Assembly: GCF_026151205.1 (NCBI RefSeq)
Contig: NC_087075.1
Location: 6,900,858 to 6,964,857, forward strand
Direction: 5' to 3'
Length of the DNA: 64,000 nucleotides
Source of the DNA: Bolinopsis microptera
Lineage: Eukaryota; Ctenophora; Tentaculata; Lobata; Bolinopsidae
This document shows, piece after piece, positions 38,732 through 47,700 of the stretch. Made by a program: the position numbers and the translations under genes. The notes below the pieces were generated by a model, which was not told the origin of the DNA, did not search any database, and saw only the letters and a list, made by a program, of their open reading frames with translations. Each line of letters starts with the position of its first letter. Position 1 is the first letter of the stretch.

Positions 38732-41700
38732 GTTTTATCGGCAGACTCTGCCTCTCATTCCGGAAATTGTTCCTCTTCCACTGAAAGTATTGGCCCAGAT
38801 AACAGCAGTGGGAATGAGGACAATCAAAAGCAAACAAAAGTGAAAATAAATGTTGCAGGTGGATAGTACACATTTCTTACCGCTAAATTGTTGTACCCAA
38901 ATTTAAATTATGCAATTGTGTTCAGCATGTAATTGTATGCAATTGATTTAGAAATCACTAAATACCCTATTAATCAATCAGAATCAACTTAAAGTTACCA
39001 AGCAGAATTAATACCGTCTACAAGCTTGTTATTTTCAGGAGAAATATTTGTAACTTACATTTCAACTTTAGAAAGATTCCCGGGCACGCTACTAGGCGAC
39101 AAGAAGGTTAATTAATATTATTATTAATAATACTATTGATTATTTATTATCATTGACATCATCAGTTTATAGTTGGGTTTAACTTTGAATCAGAAATTTC
39201 AAGTTAAACTGAGCTATTTTGATTGTTGAGCTGTTTTGCAACACCACGTGATGTGACGTCACATCACGTGATTGTTGACCTGTTTTGCAGGCCCAATTGT
39301 TGCAGGCCCCTGTTGCGGGCCCCTGTTGCGGGCCCTTGTTGCAGGCTCCTGTTGCGGGCCCCTGTTTTTACTACGGAGCGGGTTTATTTGAAATCAAAGA
39401 AAAAATATAAAGGTTTGGATATTTGACAAAACACCATGCTTTATTTTTCAGAGGCGACAGAAACATTACAATCCAGAAAAGGAGATGTACATATTCAATA
39501 GGAACAGAGTTATGTTTGAATGGATTCTCTTTTACTATCAGAGTCGCGGGGACCTTTATATTCCCAAGGTTAGAATTGAGAACTGTGATAATTTTTTCTG
39601 AGATACCTTACCTGGGGACCCCACCTTAAATATATTGATAGGAGATATGGCAGAATGATTGGCAGAGCGCGGCCCAGTAAAACATAGGTACCGAATATTA
39701 TTATTAAAATATACTATCGTCGAAAAATCGAAAAAATTCTAATTAAAGTAATTCATAAATAGCAAAAGGTCAAAATCTTCATAACTGATTCTTCAGTATT
39801 TTGTATTTTAATTGGAGTTAAAAACTTGGTTCAGTCCCGGTATCAGATATTACATAGATTAAACATTTCAAGAGCAATATAATCCAGTTATTTGTACCCC
39901 ATAACCACTGTACTGACTGGAGATATGAGAGGAGAAGGGGCCAGTTGGTAGATCACCGACCGGCTATAAGCCGGCTACTAACCGGCTATAAGCCGGCTTA
40001 TAGCCGGCTACAATTTTTATAGCCGGCTATAAGCCGGCTTATAGCCGGTTAGTAGCCGCTTACATTTGTTGTTGAGCGACGGCTATTAGCCGGTTATAAG
40101 CCTGCTATTATAGCCGTTTTGGTATTAAAAGTGGTTATAAGCCGGTTATAAGATATTAACTCAACTACATCGTACTGAACGATAGTCAGGAGCCGGCTAT
40201 AAGAAATTCAGTGAAAACGGCTATTAGCCGGTTATAAGCCGGCTATTAGCCGTTTAGGTATCGAAAGTGGTTATAAGCCGGCTATAAGCCGGCTATAAGC
40301 CGGTTATAAGATATTAACTCAGTTCAGTACGATGAAGTTAAGTTAATATCTTATAGCCGGCTTATAGCCGGCTTATAACCACTTTCGATACCTAAACGGC
40401 TAATAGCCGGCTTATAACCGGCTAATAGCCGTTTTCGCTGAATTTCTTATAGCCGGCTCCTAGTCCTGACTATCGTTCAGTACGATGTAGTTGAGTTAAT
40501 ATCTTATAACCGGCTTATAGCCGGCTTATAGCCGGCTTATAACCACTTTATATACCTAAACGGCTAATAGCCGGCTTATAACCGGCTAATAGCCGTTTTC
40601 ACTGAATTTCTTATAGCCGATACCTAAACGGCTAATAGCCGGCTTATAACCGGCTAATAGCCGTCGCTCAACAACAAATGTAAGCGGCTACTAACCGGCT
40701 ATAAGCCGGCTTATAGCCGGCTATAAAAATTGTAGCCGGCTATAAGCCGGTTTATAGCCGGCTTATAACCGGCTTATAGCCGGTCGGTGATCTACCAATT
40801 TCCCGGAGAAGGATTCGTTGAACTTGTAGTTGTAGAGTAGGTAGGTGAGACAGTGAGAGGAAGTATTTGGGTTAAATCTTGGTGACAGCTGGAGATAAAG
40901 GGGTCAGAGTTCAAAGGCTTTGGAAACGTTAGAAGCTTCACGAAAGGTAAAGGCTTAACAAAAATTGGACTTCCAACACTATCAGTATGGTTCTGTAAAT
41001 AATTTAAAGAGCGGCTACTTTCATGAAATGTATGTGAGTTTTCTCCGATATCAATTCGCTGATTGGAAACCAACGTTAACTCATTACTATCACTATAACT
41101 ATAAGAATATTTAAAAGATTGATATGGATTTTTCTTGCAGACGTAAGGTTTCCGATGGCGAGCTAAATTAGATTTTCGGATTGTACTGTAGGAACATTCA
41201 GAGCATTTGTATGGTTTTTCACCGGTATGAGTCCTCTGATGGTAAACTAGCTCTGATTTTCGGATTGCACTGTAGGAACACTCAAAGCATTTATATGGTT
41301 TTTCACCGGTATGAGTCCTCTGATGGAAAACTAGAGATGATTTTCGGATTGCACTGTAGGAACACTCCGAGCATTTATATGGTTTTTCACCGGTATGAAT
41401 CCTCTGATGTAAAACTAAGGATGATTTTCGGCTTGCACTGTAGGAACACTCAAAGCATTTGTATGACTTTTCACCGGTATGAGTCAACTGATGGCTAACT
41501 AAATGAGATTTTTGGCTTCCACTGTAAGAACATTCAGAACATGTATACGGTTTTTCGCCGGTATGAGTCCTCTGATGTAAAACTAAAGTTGAATTTTGGA
41601 TTGCACTGTAGGAACACTCCGAGCATTTATATGGTTTTTCACCGGTGTGAGTCCTTTGATGTAAAATTAAAGTTGAATTTTGGATTGCACTGTAGGAACA

Positions 41701-44700
41701 CTCCGAGCATTTATATGGTTTTTCACCGGTATGAATCCTCTGATGTGAAACTAAGGATGATTTTCGGCTTGCACTGTAGGAACACTCCGAGCATTTATAT
41801 GGTTTTTCACCGTTATGAATCCTCTGATGTGAAACTAAGGATGATTTTCGGCTTGCACTGTAGGAACACTCCGAGCATTTATATGGTTTCTCACCGTTAT
41901 GAATCCTCTGATGTAAAACTAAAGATGATTTTCGGATTGCACTGTAGGAACACTCAAAGCATTTGTATGACTTTTCACCGGTATGAGTCAACTGATGGCT
42001 AACCAAATGAGATTTGTGGCTTCCACTGTAAGAACATTCAGAACATGTATACGGTTTTTTGCCGGTATGAGACTGCTGATCAGAATTAGAAGGCAATGTT
42101 GATTTTTTGCTGGGACTGCAAAAAGTATCAGAGGGTTTTAATTGATGTTGGGTTACTTTCATCAATTCTGTTTCAGCAACAAAACTTTGGCTAAGTTCTA
42201 AATCAGCATCGTTTTGTAGGTTTTGTGGTGAAGTATGGCCTTTATCTGTGTCTCCAGCGATAACCGTAGAATCATAGTGTGGACGAGGTTCCTTTTTATA
42301 CTTCATCTGAAAATTAGTAGGATTCGAATACACTTCTGATTTGATGAGTAAATCATCTTCCTCTTTCTTGATGTCTGTCTCTATCAATTCTGGCGTAATA
42401 CAATCATCTTCCGTCTTCATCTCATCTTTAAATTTTAGTACATTTTGTTGCTTCATTTCACTGAAATGCCAACGATCGTATAAAAGTTGCCGTACAAAAA
42501 TAGCAACTAGAAAGAAATGAATTGGAATCACGATATGGTCCTGCGAGGCTGAGATTTATAATTAAATTTCGCTAAAGATGCACGATGAAGAAAGAAGCCC
42601 TTGATCACCATGTGTTCATGAACTTGATGGTATCCCAGGAAATAGGGAAAAGGCGGAGAAGGTAACCAAGTTCGAAAAAATTTGTCGATAGTTAAACAAG
42701 GTATTGTTTACACTTGCTTCCCGGTTCGAAGTTTATTAGTACTTAATTAAGGGCTTGGACAATGGAAACGAGATGGATAATAATGGTCAGAAAGGTACGA
42801 AACTGAACAACGAATAATCGAATAATTGCACAACAAAACTCCTCATTACTCCGACTCATATTGCCTCAAACATTGCACGACAAAACTCCTAATTACTCCG
42901 ATTCATATTGCCTCAACTATTGCACAACACAATAGGCAAAACAATAGCATCTATGACTATACTAATAATCTAAAGTGTTAAGATCTAAACAGACTCTTCT
43001 TCATGATGTTCTTACACGAATTATGAGGGTATAGGACGCAGCGGCGGAAGTCACTCCGGCAGTGTACAGTCCGGCGGAGGACGGTACAGCGGAGGTCGGT
43101 ACGGCGGTAGTTTCCAAAAAGGTTAGACGGTACGGCGGATCACATGACACCCACTTTACTTTGGACAGTACGGCGGTACTACTACTACTTTTTTTATGAA
43201 AATCTTTTCAAAATTTACAGAACAGCAATAAATCGATCAGAAAATAAAACTGGTAAAAACATGCTTCCGTCTGTAAATAATGACGGGACACCAAAACACG
43301 ATGATTGCATGACAAGTCACGCTCGCAAAAGATGGGCCCTTCAGGCAAGAATGAAATGTGAGCTGTGATACTCAATATAACAAAATTAAAAGCAAATCAT
43401 GAATTGTGAGCTGTGGTCAAAAGGCACTCTCGTAAATGCACAGACAAAACATATCACACGATACAAAATCTTCAAGTTCATTTATCAGCCTTCACTATTT
43501 CACCCTTCCGTATGAAATAGCTTCCAGACGGGTCGTCTGATCGCTTCTTCTTTAGTTCGGTAACGAGTTTCTGACGGCTGATACGTTCTTCGGGAGTTCT
43601 ATTTGGTGAAATATAGACTGTCTTAAGACCTTCTATATCTTTAAGTCGCTTAGCTTTTTTCAGTATTTGATAAACCACGTCCGCACTCTGAACACTGAAT
43701 ATGATCGGTCTCTTGAGATCAGCTCCACGCTGACCGATTCTCCTGCATCCCGTGATACGTGGCCTCTCCTCCAGCTGTTCGAGGATTTTAGACACTTTTG
43801 TAGCTGGACACTCGCCATTCTCCTCTTCAACACCGAACACAACAACTTCTTTACTTCTGTCCTCTTCCTTGACGATCTTCTTAACTGCTGTAGCAATCTT
43901 CGTCGGTGATAGAGCAGTTGAACAGCTCTCCTGCAGTGTTGAGCAGCTCTCCTGTAGTATTGAAGAATAAGACTTTATCTCCTTCTGAACTGAATGCTGA
44001 ATGATTGCTAAATCTCTATCTTTCATGGTGATAACTTTATTCTGCAGAGTGATCATTTCCTTTTTATCAGAAATATTCTCTTCCTGCAAATCTTCAATCT
44101 TTCTTCTGGCAGAAGACATCATCGGCAAACAAGTCTGATGAAGAAGATAAATCGCCGCATGCAACCACTCAGCCATCTGGGCCTTTACAACAGAGGTCTT
44201 GTTTAACATATCAGGTTCAAAATCCCCAGGGTCATCACAGTTATAAACTTGACACATGTCGTTAAACAATGAATTACATGATTTCTGCACTTCCTTCAGA
44301 TTATCCTCCCCAAAAACTTCGTCAGACCCGATTCCCTCCTCGAATATTTTCTTCAAATACTTGTCAGAATCATACCGAACAGCCATAATACAATGTGCAA
44401 TGTATAATTCGCTTGTATATCCGGTGTAACACAGTAACAGGGTAATCCGCTCAGCGTGTAATTATCAAGTAGAGATAAGCAAGAGCGACTAAATTGCAAC
44501 AGCAGATAAAATACAAGACGATATATATATACTAGAATATATATATACTAGAAACTGTACCTATAAGATAGACCTAGCACTGCTTATACAAAATGATAAA
44601 GAGAAAAGAAAAAAGAAAACTTATAATGCGAATCTAGAACAAAACTTAGAAACAAGTTGAATGTGTAAGTTCTGTCTTAGGTACAGTTTCTAGTAGTAGT

Positions 44701-47700
44701 AGTAGTACCGCCGTACTGTCCAAAGTAAAGTGGGTGTCATGTGATCCGCCGTACCGTCCAACCTTTTTGGAAACTACCGCCGTACCGACCTCCGCTGTAC
44801 CGTCTTCCGCCGGACTGTACACCGCTGCAGTGACCGGTTCCCGAATTATGAATTAGGGATGAACTGGTTCATAGGAATCCTATTAGGGTAATGCAAGTTA
44901 TTAGTTGGTTTGTGTGTACTTGTAGATAGTAACTCTGTGCGGCTTCTAGTGATATAATAGAAAATTATTGTAATTATTAGTTATTACGTAAGAATTATTA
45001 TAAAAGTTATGTTTATATAGAAACAAGGAGAGTAACTTATTACTTACACATTGAGGCACTTTTCTAATTTCTTGTACCTATCGAGAATGACTCGGACCAA
45101 AAATTTTCGTCAAAAATCGCGATTCGTCGCAGGGAATTGGAAAAATCGCGATTCTGCACGTGCCGCGATTTCTTTTTGACCTTGCTGCTCCTGTCTCTTG
45201 ATTGCTTATGATGATCAGGAACACATCACATATGACGTATCATCACGACGATTATTGGTCACTCGAAATCGACCCGGTATTGTTAAGAATGCAATGTAGT
45301 CTAGTAGTACAGACAGATCCGTCTGAAAAAATCGATCTGCTGACACACGAAGCTTTCAGAGGATTTTTGATGTTTTTGAGTCCCATTAAGTGCCCTTTAT
45401 GGCTGACCAACTTTTCCAAACTTTTCCACTTGTCTTAAGGCCACTTTTTGCCACTTTACCACTTTTTACCACCTTTCTTGTTTGTCGAATATCTTTAGTT
45501 GTGAACATCGTAAAAGGTTGCAGATCAATCGAGTGTGTTCATATTATCAGGAAGAAAAACTTTTGTTCAAACAATTTTTACGTCAGATAATAAGTTAATT
45601 GGATAATTATCAATTAACTAATTAGCAAAATTCTAAAAAAATTTTATTGGCTCAAAATGATCGGAATAGCTTAAAACACGGAGAAAAGTAGTTTTTAGAA
45701 AAAATTTGAAAATTTTTCACTTTCATTTTTTTCGAAAATTCAAAATATTTTTTCCGCCAAAAGTGATCAAACCGCATGAAACACGGAAAAAAATGCCTTT
45801 CAAAAGAACTTAGTAAATTTTTCGTTTCAAGAATACTTAAATCGCCAATATTTGTAGTTGGAGTTCAGTAAATCTCGGCAGATTTTAGTAATCAGGAATT
45901 ACTAAGTGAAGAGGTCTGAAACTGAAAAACGTTAACCATACGATCGCGCGGCGATATAAGAGTTTCATAAATTATTTTACGCAGAAACTGCACCAATGGC
46001 ACAGTCAAGATCGAAACGATAGCCTGCTGTACTGTCATTTTATTGATTTCAATGATGAATCAGTGGGGTTAAGATAATCACATTTGTAATAAATAAACAT
46101 CTCTGTACCGTCAATTGTGCTAATCTAAACCAGCCTACCTGTATTACCAGACCTCTTCTTTTCCTCGACAATCAAACCAAGTTGTTCATATCGCATTTGG
46201 TGAGAGACGTTTTAAAGTTTATCACGAAAACGTATACTTGACCTCATGGCTCATTTACAGTTCGAAGAAGGCAAGAACAGATCAGGGAAACTAAGGAACA
46301 GCCAGGTCCAGGAAGCAAGTGTAAATACACCTTCCAACATCAACTGTGACTTGTTTTGTATTGTTCTGCATACCGCTTCATTTACTATGCTGGATCGGTG
46401 GTTACCTCAAATCACCCCCATATGTCATCGTCAGGGTCGGCTAAACGTAAAATCAGCAAGAGTAACATACTGGCAAGGGTAAGATGTAGATACGAGTGAC
46501 GGGCAAGGGGTAGTAAAGAACCGGTAATAATTAATTCAGTGAAATGCTCCACGAGAGTCAGGATATTTTGGAAATTGCTAATAGAGACAGATTCTGATCA
46601 GGAAGGATTGTTAATGTTATTGAGGGTGTTGATTTGAAATCCGGACGTCGTGAGGTAAAAATACAGGTTCTTCCCGTAGGATATTCGGGGCCATGATGAT
46701 CAGCTCAGGATTAATGTGGGACAGATCGAACTTCGAAGAGCATTGAAAAGAGCGAGTTGAAATTTTAAGCTTTCTGGTCTTTTCTTGCCTTCTTTGAGCT
46801 GTCAAAGAGCCATGAGGCCAAGTAGACGTTTTCGTGCTAAACTGTAAAACCTCTCCATACTGGGCCTCTCACAGGAGAAACGAGAAGTGTACGGTATAGA
46901 ACGTTTCATATACCTCATTAAGGGCCATAATATAATATACACGTATTGCATTGTGTCGTATTGTGATTGAATACATTCACGATATGTATTACTACTTACA
47001 TCACCCACCAAATGCGATATGAACAACTTGGTTTGATTGTCGAGGAAAAGAAGAGGTCTGGTAATACAGGTAGGCTGGTTTAGATTAGCACAATTGACGG
47101 TACAGAGATGTTTATTTATTACAAATGTGATTATCTTAACCCCACTGATTCATCATTGAAATCAATAAAATGACAGTACAGCAGGCTATCGTTTCGATCT
47201 TGACTGTGCCATTGGTGCAGTTTCTGCGTAAAATAATTTATGAAACTCTTATATCGCCGCGCGATCGTATGGTTAACGTTTTTCAGTTTCAGACCTCTTC
47301 ACTTAGTAATTCCTGATTACTAAAATCTGCCGAGATTTACTGAACTTCAACTACATGCGGTTTATTTAAGTATTCTTGAAACGAAAAATTCACTAAGTTT
47401 TTTTGAAAGGCATTTTTCTCCGTGTTTCATGCGGTTTGATCACTTTTGGCGGAAAAAATATTTTGAATTTTCGAAAAAAATGAAAGTGAAAAATTTTCAA
47501 ATTTTTTCTAAAAACTACTTTTCTCCGTGTTTTAAGCTATTCCGATCATTTTGAGCCAATAAAATTTTTTTAGAATTTTGCTAATTAGTTAATTGATAAT
47601 TATCCAATTAACTTATTATCTGACGTAAAAATTGTTTGAACAAAAGTTTTTCTTCCTGATAATATGAACACACTCGATTGATCTGCAACCTTTTACGATG

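Follow-up and report, generated by a model that had tools for sequence, protein, structure and literature searches.

A probable HAL1-like parasite of LINEs nested within a Mutator-like element in the genome of the ctenophore Bolinopsis microptera

Parasites of long interspersed nuclear elements (LINEs) are mostly seen as either non-coding, as in the case of short interspersed nuclear elements (SINEs), which are short and carry no genes, or as deletion products of LINEs, as in the case of HAL1. In mammals, HAL1 (half-L1) is a non-autonomous derivative of L1 that encodes only ORF1p (PMC5753468). For SINE/LINE pairs, the accepted view is that the LINE recognises the 3′ tail which it has in common with the SINE (PMC3747384), and in human cells, RNA polymerase II (pol II) transcripts, unlike the SINEs transcribed by pol III, require ORF1p in addition to ORF2p (PMC2666806). 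The type II ORF1 proteins, which consist of a coiled coil, an RRM and a C-terminal domain (CTD), are encoded by LINEs of the L1, CR1, L2 and R1 clades; Metcalfe and Casane reported that CR1 and L2 LINEs have exchanged their ORF1 and suggested that some single-open reading frame (ORF), PHD-bearing elements may be parasites of transposable elements (PMC4120745). The titles and abstract openings consulted, with most subscription journals outside reach, included papers on HAL1 but described neither ORF1-only LINE parasites beyond mammals nor a diversified lineage of such elements. Here, we describe a 1.36-kb retroelement that is probably a parasite of this kind and resides in a 64,000-nucleotide stretch (hereafter, the window) of the ctenophore Bolinopsis microptera genome (contig NC_087075.1, positions 6,900,858 to 6,964,857).

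The earlier note on this locus, made from the letters of the window, had interpreted it as a single Mutator-like DNA element with terminal inverted repeats (TIRs) enclosing one gene that resembles a LINE ORF1 protein, and had proposed that the gene might be captured cargo, a helper of transposition or the mark of a new class of TIR transposon. Instead, the locus consists of 2 separate mobile elements, a miniature inverted-repeat transposable element (MITE) and an ORF-carrying retroelement nested within it. Pairing of the inverted repeats revealed an interruption of the left TIR, with 1.36 kb including the ORF lying between positions 43189 and 44546 (Table 1). A whole-genome DNA search recovered the TIR ends of the outer element at no fewer than 31 other loci, a lower bound obtained after scoring 40 of 152 candidates; such recurrence is not expected by chance. 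The ORF block had no match at any of these 31 loci, and in the 12 sister copies that were fetched (L009–L020) no match of 30 bp or longer was found. In 7 of the 12 (L009, L010, L013, L016, L017, L018, and L020), the 43189 side is joined to the 44546 side, as expected of an empty site, with approximately 7 extra bases at the joint in L009 and fewer TAC units there in L016, L017, and L020; in the remaining 5, the inner segment 44546-44597 was unmatched. The split left TIR and the sister copies devoid of the ORF block thus identify positions 43190-44545 as an insertion into the TIR. With the ORF block carried by 0 of the 12 sister copies and matched at 0 of the 31 loci, the proposed roles as cargo, helper or novel transposon gene are not supported.

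The outer element itself fits the description of a Mutator-like MITE, the Mutator superfamily and its MITEs being characterised by long TIRs and target-site duplications of about 9 bp. The long, nearly identical TIRs reported earlier were borne out (140 nt, 96% complementary), whereas 2 details required revision: the direct repeat is genuine but 9 rather than 10 bp long, the supposed tenth base being a C common to the flank and the element end, and the start at 43027 stands while the end shifts from 44841 to 44842. Of the 12 fetched sister copies, 8 could be delimited at both ends, and their flanks, judged by eye, display duplications of 8–9 bp in 6 cases (one with a mismatch), of about 6 bp in one and none in another. 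The Mutator-like label, which was assigned from anatomy only, fits these features. Nesting of the same 2 kinds of elements was also seen in the reciprocal arrangement, with a copy of the TIR element lying within the ORF of another ORF-only element (L016:325-1238) and flanked by the 8-bp duplication AAGCTCAA.

Read on the minus strand, the insert comprises a 5′ region, the ORF, a 3′ untranslated region and an end reading ...GTAAATTTTGAAAAGATTTTCATAAAAAAA; the single intact gene of 302 codons recognised earlier was confirmed. A near-identical copy, which differs at 1 position over 1,296 bp, resides on a second contig and has no such TIR around it (L001:4166-5462). This copy has a shorter 5′ end than the window insert and is flanked on both sides by TATGCTC, a 7-bp duplication which on the 3′ side lies one T past the A-run. 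A degenerate copy (L002) is 96–97% identical, and the 3′ end alone (approximately 440–450 bp, 89–95% identical) is found in a repeat represented by L003–L008. The occurrence of independent copies that begin at different 5′ positions but end at the same 3′ terminus indicates that the block moves by itself in the manner of a retroelement. Indeed, hallmarks of the target-primed reverse transcription type are present, namely, an A-rich 3′ end, 5′ truncation and a variable target duplication (L001 and the 3′-end-only L003–L008). The earlier note had named as the contrary outcome a simple nested LINE fragment, confined to this copy, with a 3′ tail and target duplication of its own. A LINE-type 3′ tail and, in L001, a separate target duplication are indeed there, but the ORF is not limited to the window copy and the nested unit is a retroelement with an intact ORF rather than a LINE fragment.

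An intron-bearing parent gene was considered as the source of these copies, with L002 (contig C6) resembling 2 exons separated by approximately 437 bp and L003–L008 resembling the last exon. The intron was rejected because the gap in L002 contains short tandem repeats within a degenerate copy. The last-exon reading of L003–L008 was rejected in view of the CAGTGGCG ends and the 8-bp duplications TGGAGCAT and GTCCTCTC (copies on contigs C13 and C8), which point to a hAT-like repeat; it spans 3.9 and 4.5 kb in the 2 copies with these features. This hAT-like repeat has carried the 3′ end of the window retroelement to several contigs.

Genome-wide, at least 157 matches to the 302-aa protein were obtained after scoring 130 of 1,239 candidates, a recurrence not expected by chance; most of those shown lack internal stops. 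The relatives include 4 subfamilies, in which all 12 copies compared, each at a different locus, have common ends and a single ORF of 308–343 aa; the elements are 1,245–1,268 bp (n = 4), 1,225–1,226 bp (n = 3), 1,409 bp (n = 2) and 1,310–1,313 bp (n = 3) long, with ends placed by hand from pairwise alignments. Inspection by eye of the printed ends of these 12 relatives revealed no TIRs. The window protein is 29–37% identical to its relatives. On contigs C1–C4, to which the count was restricted since their tail lists are complete, an exact tail of either of 2 sequences lies 197–370 bp downstream of 31 of the 47 ORF matches, leaving no space for a reverse transcriptase (RT).

The tail links these elements to a LINE from the same genome. 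A genome search gave 258 occurrences of the tail pattern, compared to 0 for a reversed control. The variant most frequent in the 100 places listed is located at the 3′ end of a LINE encoding an endonuclease and RT. Among 4 fetched loci with this variant, L043 and L044 hold the LINE ORF2, L042 a fragment of this LINE and L045 the end only. In copy L046, both frames of the LINE are open: ORF1 comprises 481 aa and matches GDSL lipase (E 3.3e-12), and ORF2 comprises 1,178 aa and matches endonuclease and RVT_1 (E 1.2e-28). Its RT has at least 60 matches in the genome, many in 1,178-aa frames (58 of 6,913 candidates scored), and all 15 LINE RT matches on C1–C4 are followed by a tail of the same kind 388–421 bp downstream. 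Over its last 114 alignment columns, the window insert matches the LINE at 77% (E 2.6e-18); for the 320-aa subfamily, the match extends over 113 bp at 80.5% (E 1.4e-27). A possible hairpin within this region (43266-43287) includes a base pair read as G-C in the window insert and the 320-aa elements and as A-U in the LINE; the 308-aa subfamily does not have the hairpin. Beyond the 3′ end, the rest of the 8-kb L046 locus, in which the 5′ end of the LINE is unmapped, yielded only short and weak matches to the ORF-only elements (E ≥0.03). As a partner LINE, L042 was rejected, its 1,093-aa RT frame belonging to another LINE and its tail being part of an incomplete copy of the L044/L046 LINE. The L042 locus is also broken by a minisatellite (L042:3824-6200), the translation of which repeats NTGNSTILVV.

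Codon comparisons of 19 fetched ORFs and 4 others (253 pairs) show purifying selection on the ORF family. In 21 of 21 pairs with dS of 0.1–0.3, which involve 8 sequences of the 330-aa subfamily, dN/dS is 0.10–0.24, and values of 0.34–0.38 were obtained for 18 pairs with dS of 0.43–0.47, compared to the values near 1 expected of relics; dS is saturated in 128 of the 253 pairs, and the remaining others are nearly so. The low dN/dS is most naturally taken as a sign that the ORF is important to the propagation of these elements.

As for the protein, an alignment of 10 members displays a conserved pattern comprising EEDRS, VFG, EKP, R-G, RP, a helix-like stretch and VYI-PDRS-ER, followed by a basic C-terminal end, which, by eye, we take to resemble the RRM and CTD portion found in ORF1 proteins of type II. 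The earlier assignment to a retrotransposon-type protein is supported by context, that is, the LINE-type 3′ tail, the 5′-truncated copies and the RT-less retroelement family, but not by profiles. The protein is probably an RNA-binding, ORF1p-type ribonucleoprotein (RNP) protein. A transposase was also considered and dismissed, with the ORF matching none in Pfam. Among 7 RT-LINE families examined (L037–L042 and L044/L046), in some of which ORF1 is cut off at the locus end, no related ORF was found, the best match, to the L046 ORF1, being non-significant (E 0.084). The ORF1s of 4 RT-LINE families carry an AlkB-like 2OG-Fe(II) oxygenase domain (PF13532, E 5.5e-16 to 5e-23; L037:326-1855, L038:6156-7973, L039:170-2380, L040:442-2313), which in 3 of the 4 is followed by a weaker match to GDSL lipase. 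Among the papers listed by a literature search, AlkB domains were described for orchid Ty3/Gypsy elements and for no LINE; a function of the AlkB-like ORF1s in RNA repair or demethylation is possible.

The observations of nesting with empty sites in sister copies, an independent copy with its own target duplication, an ORF-only structure, a tail shared with a LINE and purifying selection on the ORF family are best explained by a nested, ORF1-only, HAL1-like parasite of LINEs, which would have its own RNP-type protein and use the LINE enzyme through the shared tail; we consider this interpretation probable. In the proposed sequence of events, a Mutator-like MITE would have inserted first, generating the 9-bp duplication, and the 1.36-kb non-LTR (long terminal repeat) retroelement would have entered its left TIR second. 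The mRNA of the element, presumably produced from a promoter of its own, would be translated into the RNP protein, which would act in cis by remaining on, or coating, its own RNA, and the LINE ORF2 protein would recognise the common 3′ end and copy the RNA in trans into a nick by target-primed reverse transcription. The dependence of pol II transcripts on ORF1p would explain why a pol II-transcribed parasite should carry an ORF1-type gene.

Several results weigh against this interpretation. At the level of the protein, the profile search proposed earlier for the 302-aa product did not recover Transposase_22: PF02994 was not matched by any of 10 family members, nor in the genome at E values up to 10, although the latter result is weak, since no candidate was scored and absence is not established. 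There was no ORF1p among the matches in PDB, and the Pfam hits were below cutoff and to unrelated families (for example, the window protein hit TetR_C_5 at E 0.027 and one relative hit Toprim at E 0.00079). The heptad test was non-significant at the expected coiled coil (residues 78–133, p 0.125–0.23); the lowest p value (0.005, uncorrected, 38 windows) was obtained for residues 15–56, a stretch with 4 glycines, and the windows over residues 92–154 are free of proline and glycine but likewise gave no significant heptad signal. At the level of the element, the putative duplication TACT in the window is short and ambiguous, several relatives do not have a clear target duplication, and for 16 of the 47 ORF matches on C1–C4 no exact downstream tail was found, of which about 5 are probably accounted for by the 1.31-kb subfamily, which has neither tail. 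The link to the LINE is likewise uneven: the 308-aa and 330-aa subfamilies share with it only 33 and 26 bp, respectively, and the 343-aa subfamily has no 3′-end match to it, ending in a different tail, (AAATC)n. No partner LINE was found for the latter subfamily, all 4 of the fetched loci with this tail, chosen for having the tail and no listed ORF match, being ORF-only elements, 2 with broken frames. Furthermore, the hairpin has a single compensated pair, and in 500 shuffles a covariation score at least as high was obtained 77 times and a paired fraction at least as high 21 times. Finally, dN/dS is noisy for pairs with dS below 0.1 (0.13–1.08, with one pair at dS 0), and the exact ratios are unreliable, the 19 ORFs having been picked from stop-free matches and the pairs being non-independent.

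Other explanations have to be weighed against the same evidence. The elements might be HAL1-type derivatives in the strict sense, produced by internal deletions of a full LINE with the same ORF1 and an ORF2, in which case the ORF would be a relic or of recent descent. Mammalian HAL1s are elements of such kind (PMC5753468), the ORF could be of ORF1 type, and the RT survey scored 150 of 6,513 RT candidates. However, none of the 7 RT-LINE families that were viewed has the ORF, the partner LINE shares just the 3′ end, the ORF family is under purifying selection, and the divergence among relatives together with the saturated dS suggests that the RT-less state is old or recurrent; we thus regard such an origin as unlikely.

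The copies might instead be processed retrocopies that a LINE has produced from a host gene family, and no mobile element in themselves; this would account for the 3′ A-run, the shortened 5′ ends and the interrupted relative that initially appeared to contain an intron. Given that the interruption is no clear intron, and that the copies are numerous, fall into several subfamilies with common 5′ ends and have 3′ ends homologous to that of a LINE, this explanation is highly improbable. Even less credence can be given to the ORF being a cargo or helper gene of the TIR element, whether as a captured gene or as part of a new transposon class: in this one copy the TIRs and target duplication do enclose the ORF, but the empty sites, the split TIR, the near-identical copy outside any such TIR and the absence of TIRs from the inspected ends of the relatives all contradict it.

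An intact, selected ORF in several divergent RT-less subfamilies suggests that the protein serves the RNA of the element that encodes it, and that the ORF1-type function is separable from the enzyme and able to evolve alone. Whether the elements form a long-lived and diversified RT-less lineage, which would have kept the RNP protein by selection while acquiring the tails of active LINEs and would represent a protein-coding class of LINE parasites, intermediate between SINEs and LINEs, is in our view evenly balanced. If the interpretation as a HAL1-like parasite is correct, the elements would also offer a natural system for testing the effect of an ORF1-type protein on RNA copied in trans, and the requirement of pol II transcripts for such a protein.

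Features of the nested locus are listed in Table 1. The window element is adjoined by an ORF for a C2H2 zinc-finger protein (579 aa, minus strand, 40792-42531), and zinc-finger ORFs also adjoin an ORF-only copy at L025. Elsewhere in the genome, 2 ORF-only elements lie head to head (L026:540-1244 and L026:1500-2528), with frames approximately 255 bp apart, and another lies within LINE RT sequence, into which it was apparently inserted (L071:420-2248).

Table 1. Coordinates of features in the window (position 1 is its first letter).
Feature	Position	Strand	Basis or remark
Outer TIR element, fitting a Mutator-like MITE, split by the retroelement	43027..44842	.	TIRs, family copies, ends
Left target-site duplication of outer element, GAATTATGA	43018..43026	+	flank comparison
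Right target-site duplication of outer element, GAATTATGA	44843..44851	+	flank comparison
Left TIR, outer part as far as insertion point	43050..43189	+	140 nt, 96% complementary to 44695-44834
Left TIR, inner part past insertion	44546..44563	+	pairs with 44678-44695; adjoins 43189 side in 7/12 sister copies
Right TIR, unbroken	44695..44834	+	inverted-repeat pairing
TACT, possible 4-bp target duplication of retroelement	43186..43189, again 44546-44549	+	ambiguous, within short TAC repeat
16-bp tandem duplication across 5′ junction of insert	44521..44552	+	repeat analysis
Inserted non-LTR retroelement, probably ORF1-only	43190..44545	-	5′ end near 44545; 3′ A-run at 43190
ORF, 302 aa	43478..44386	-	RRM-like block and basic C-terminal end, by eye only
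Region homologous (77%) to RT-LINE 3′ end	43190..43300	-	E 2.6e-18; E 2.4e-16
Possible 3′ hairpin	43266..43287	-	one pair G-C in window, A-U in LINE; weak
Conserved tail motif, GTAAANTTTGAAAAGNNTTTNATAAAA	43192..43218	-	258 genome matches versus 0 for reversed control

Several known systems share individual features with these elements. TR-GAG elements of plants have a structural gene only and depend on enzymes from another element, as proposed here, but they belong to the LTR elements and integrate in another way. Like LINE-tailed ("stringent") SINEs, the window element and the 320-aa subfamily, though not the 343-aa subfamily, have a 3′ end homologous to that of a LINE in the same genome; unlike SINEs, the window family encodes a protein of approximately 300 aa in an intact ORF and is under purifying selection. 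The protein is similar to type II ORF1 proteins in length, block order and basic C-terminal end, as judged by eye, and differs from them in that it has no Transposase_22 match and its ORF is not followed by ORF2. The closest counterpart is HAL1, which is likewise a non-LTR element with an ORF1-type gene only and no RT that must borrow ORF2p (here, 12 of 12 copies with a single ORF, probably of ORF1 type, and 1.2–1.4 kb long). However, HAL1 is an L1 derivative that arose several times, whereas L1 descent of the ctenophore elements is unsupported, there being no PF02994 match; their body and ORF are unrelated to those of the viewed partner LINE, with just the last ~113 bp in common; and several divergent ORF-only subfamilies coexist in this genome. 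In their presumed mode of propagation the ctenophore elements function like HAL1, but they depart from it in 2 defining features: L1 descent is not demonstrated, and a body in common with the partner was not seen in the LINE viewed.

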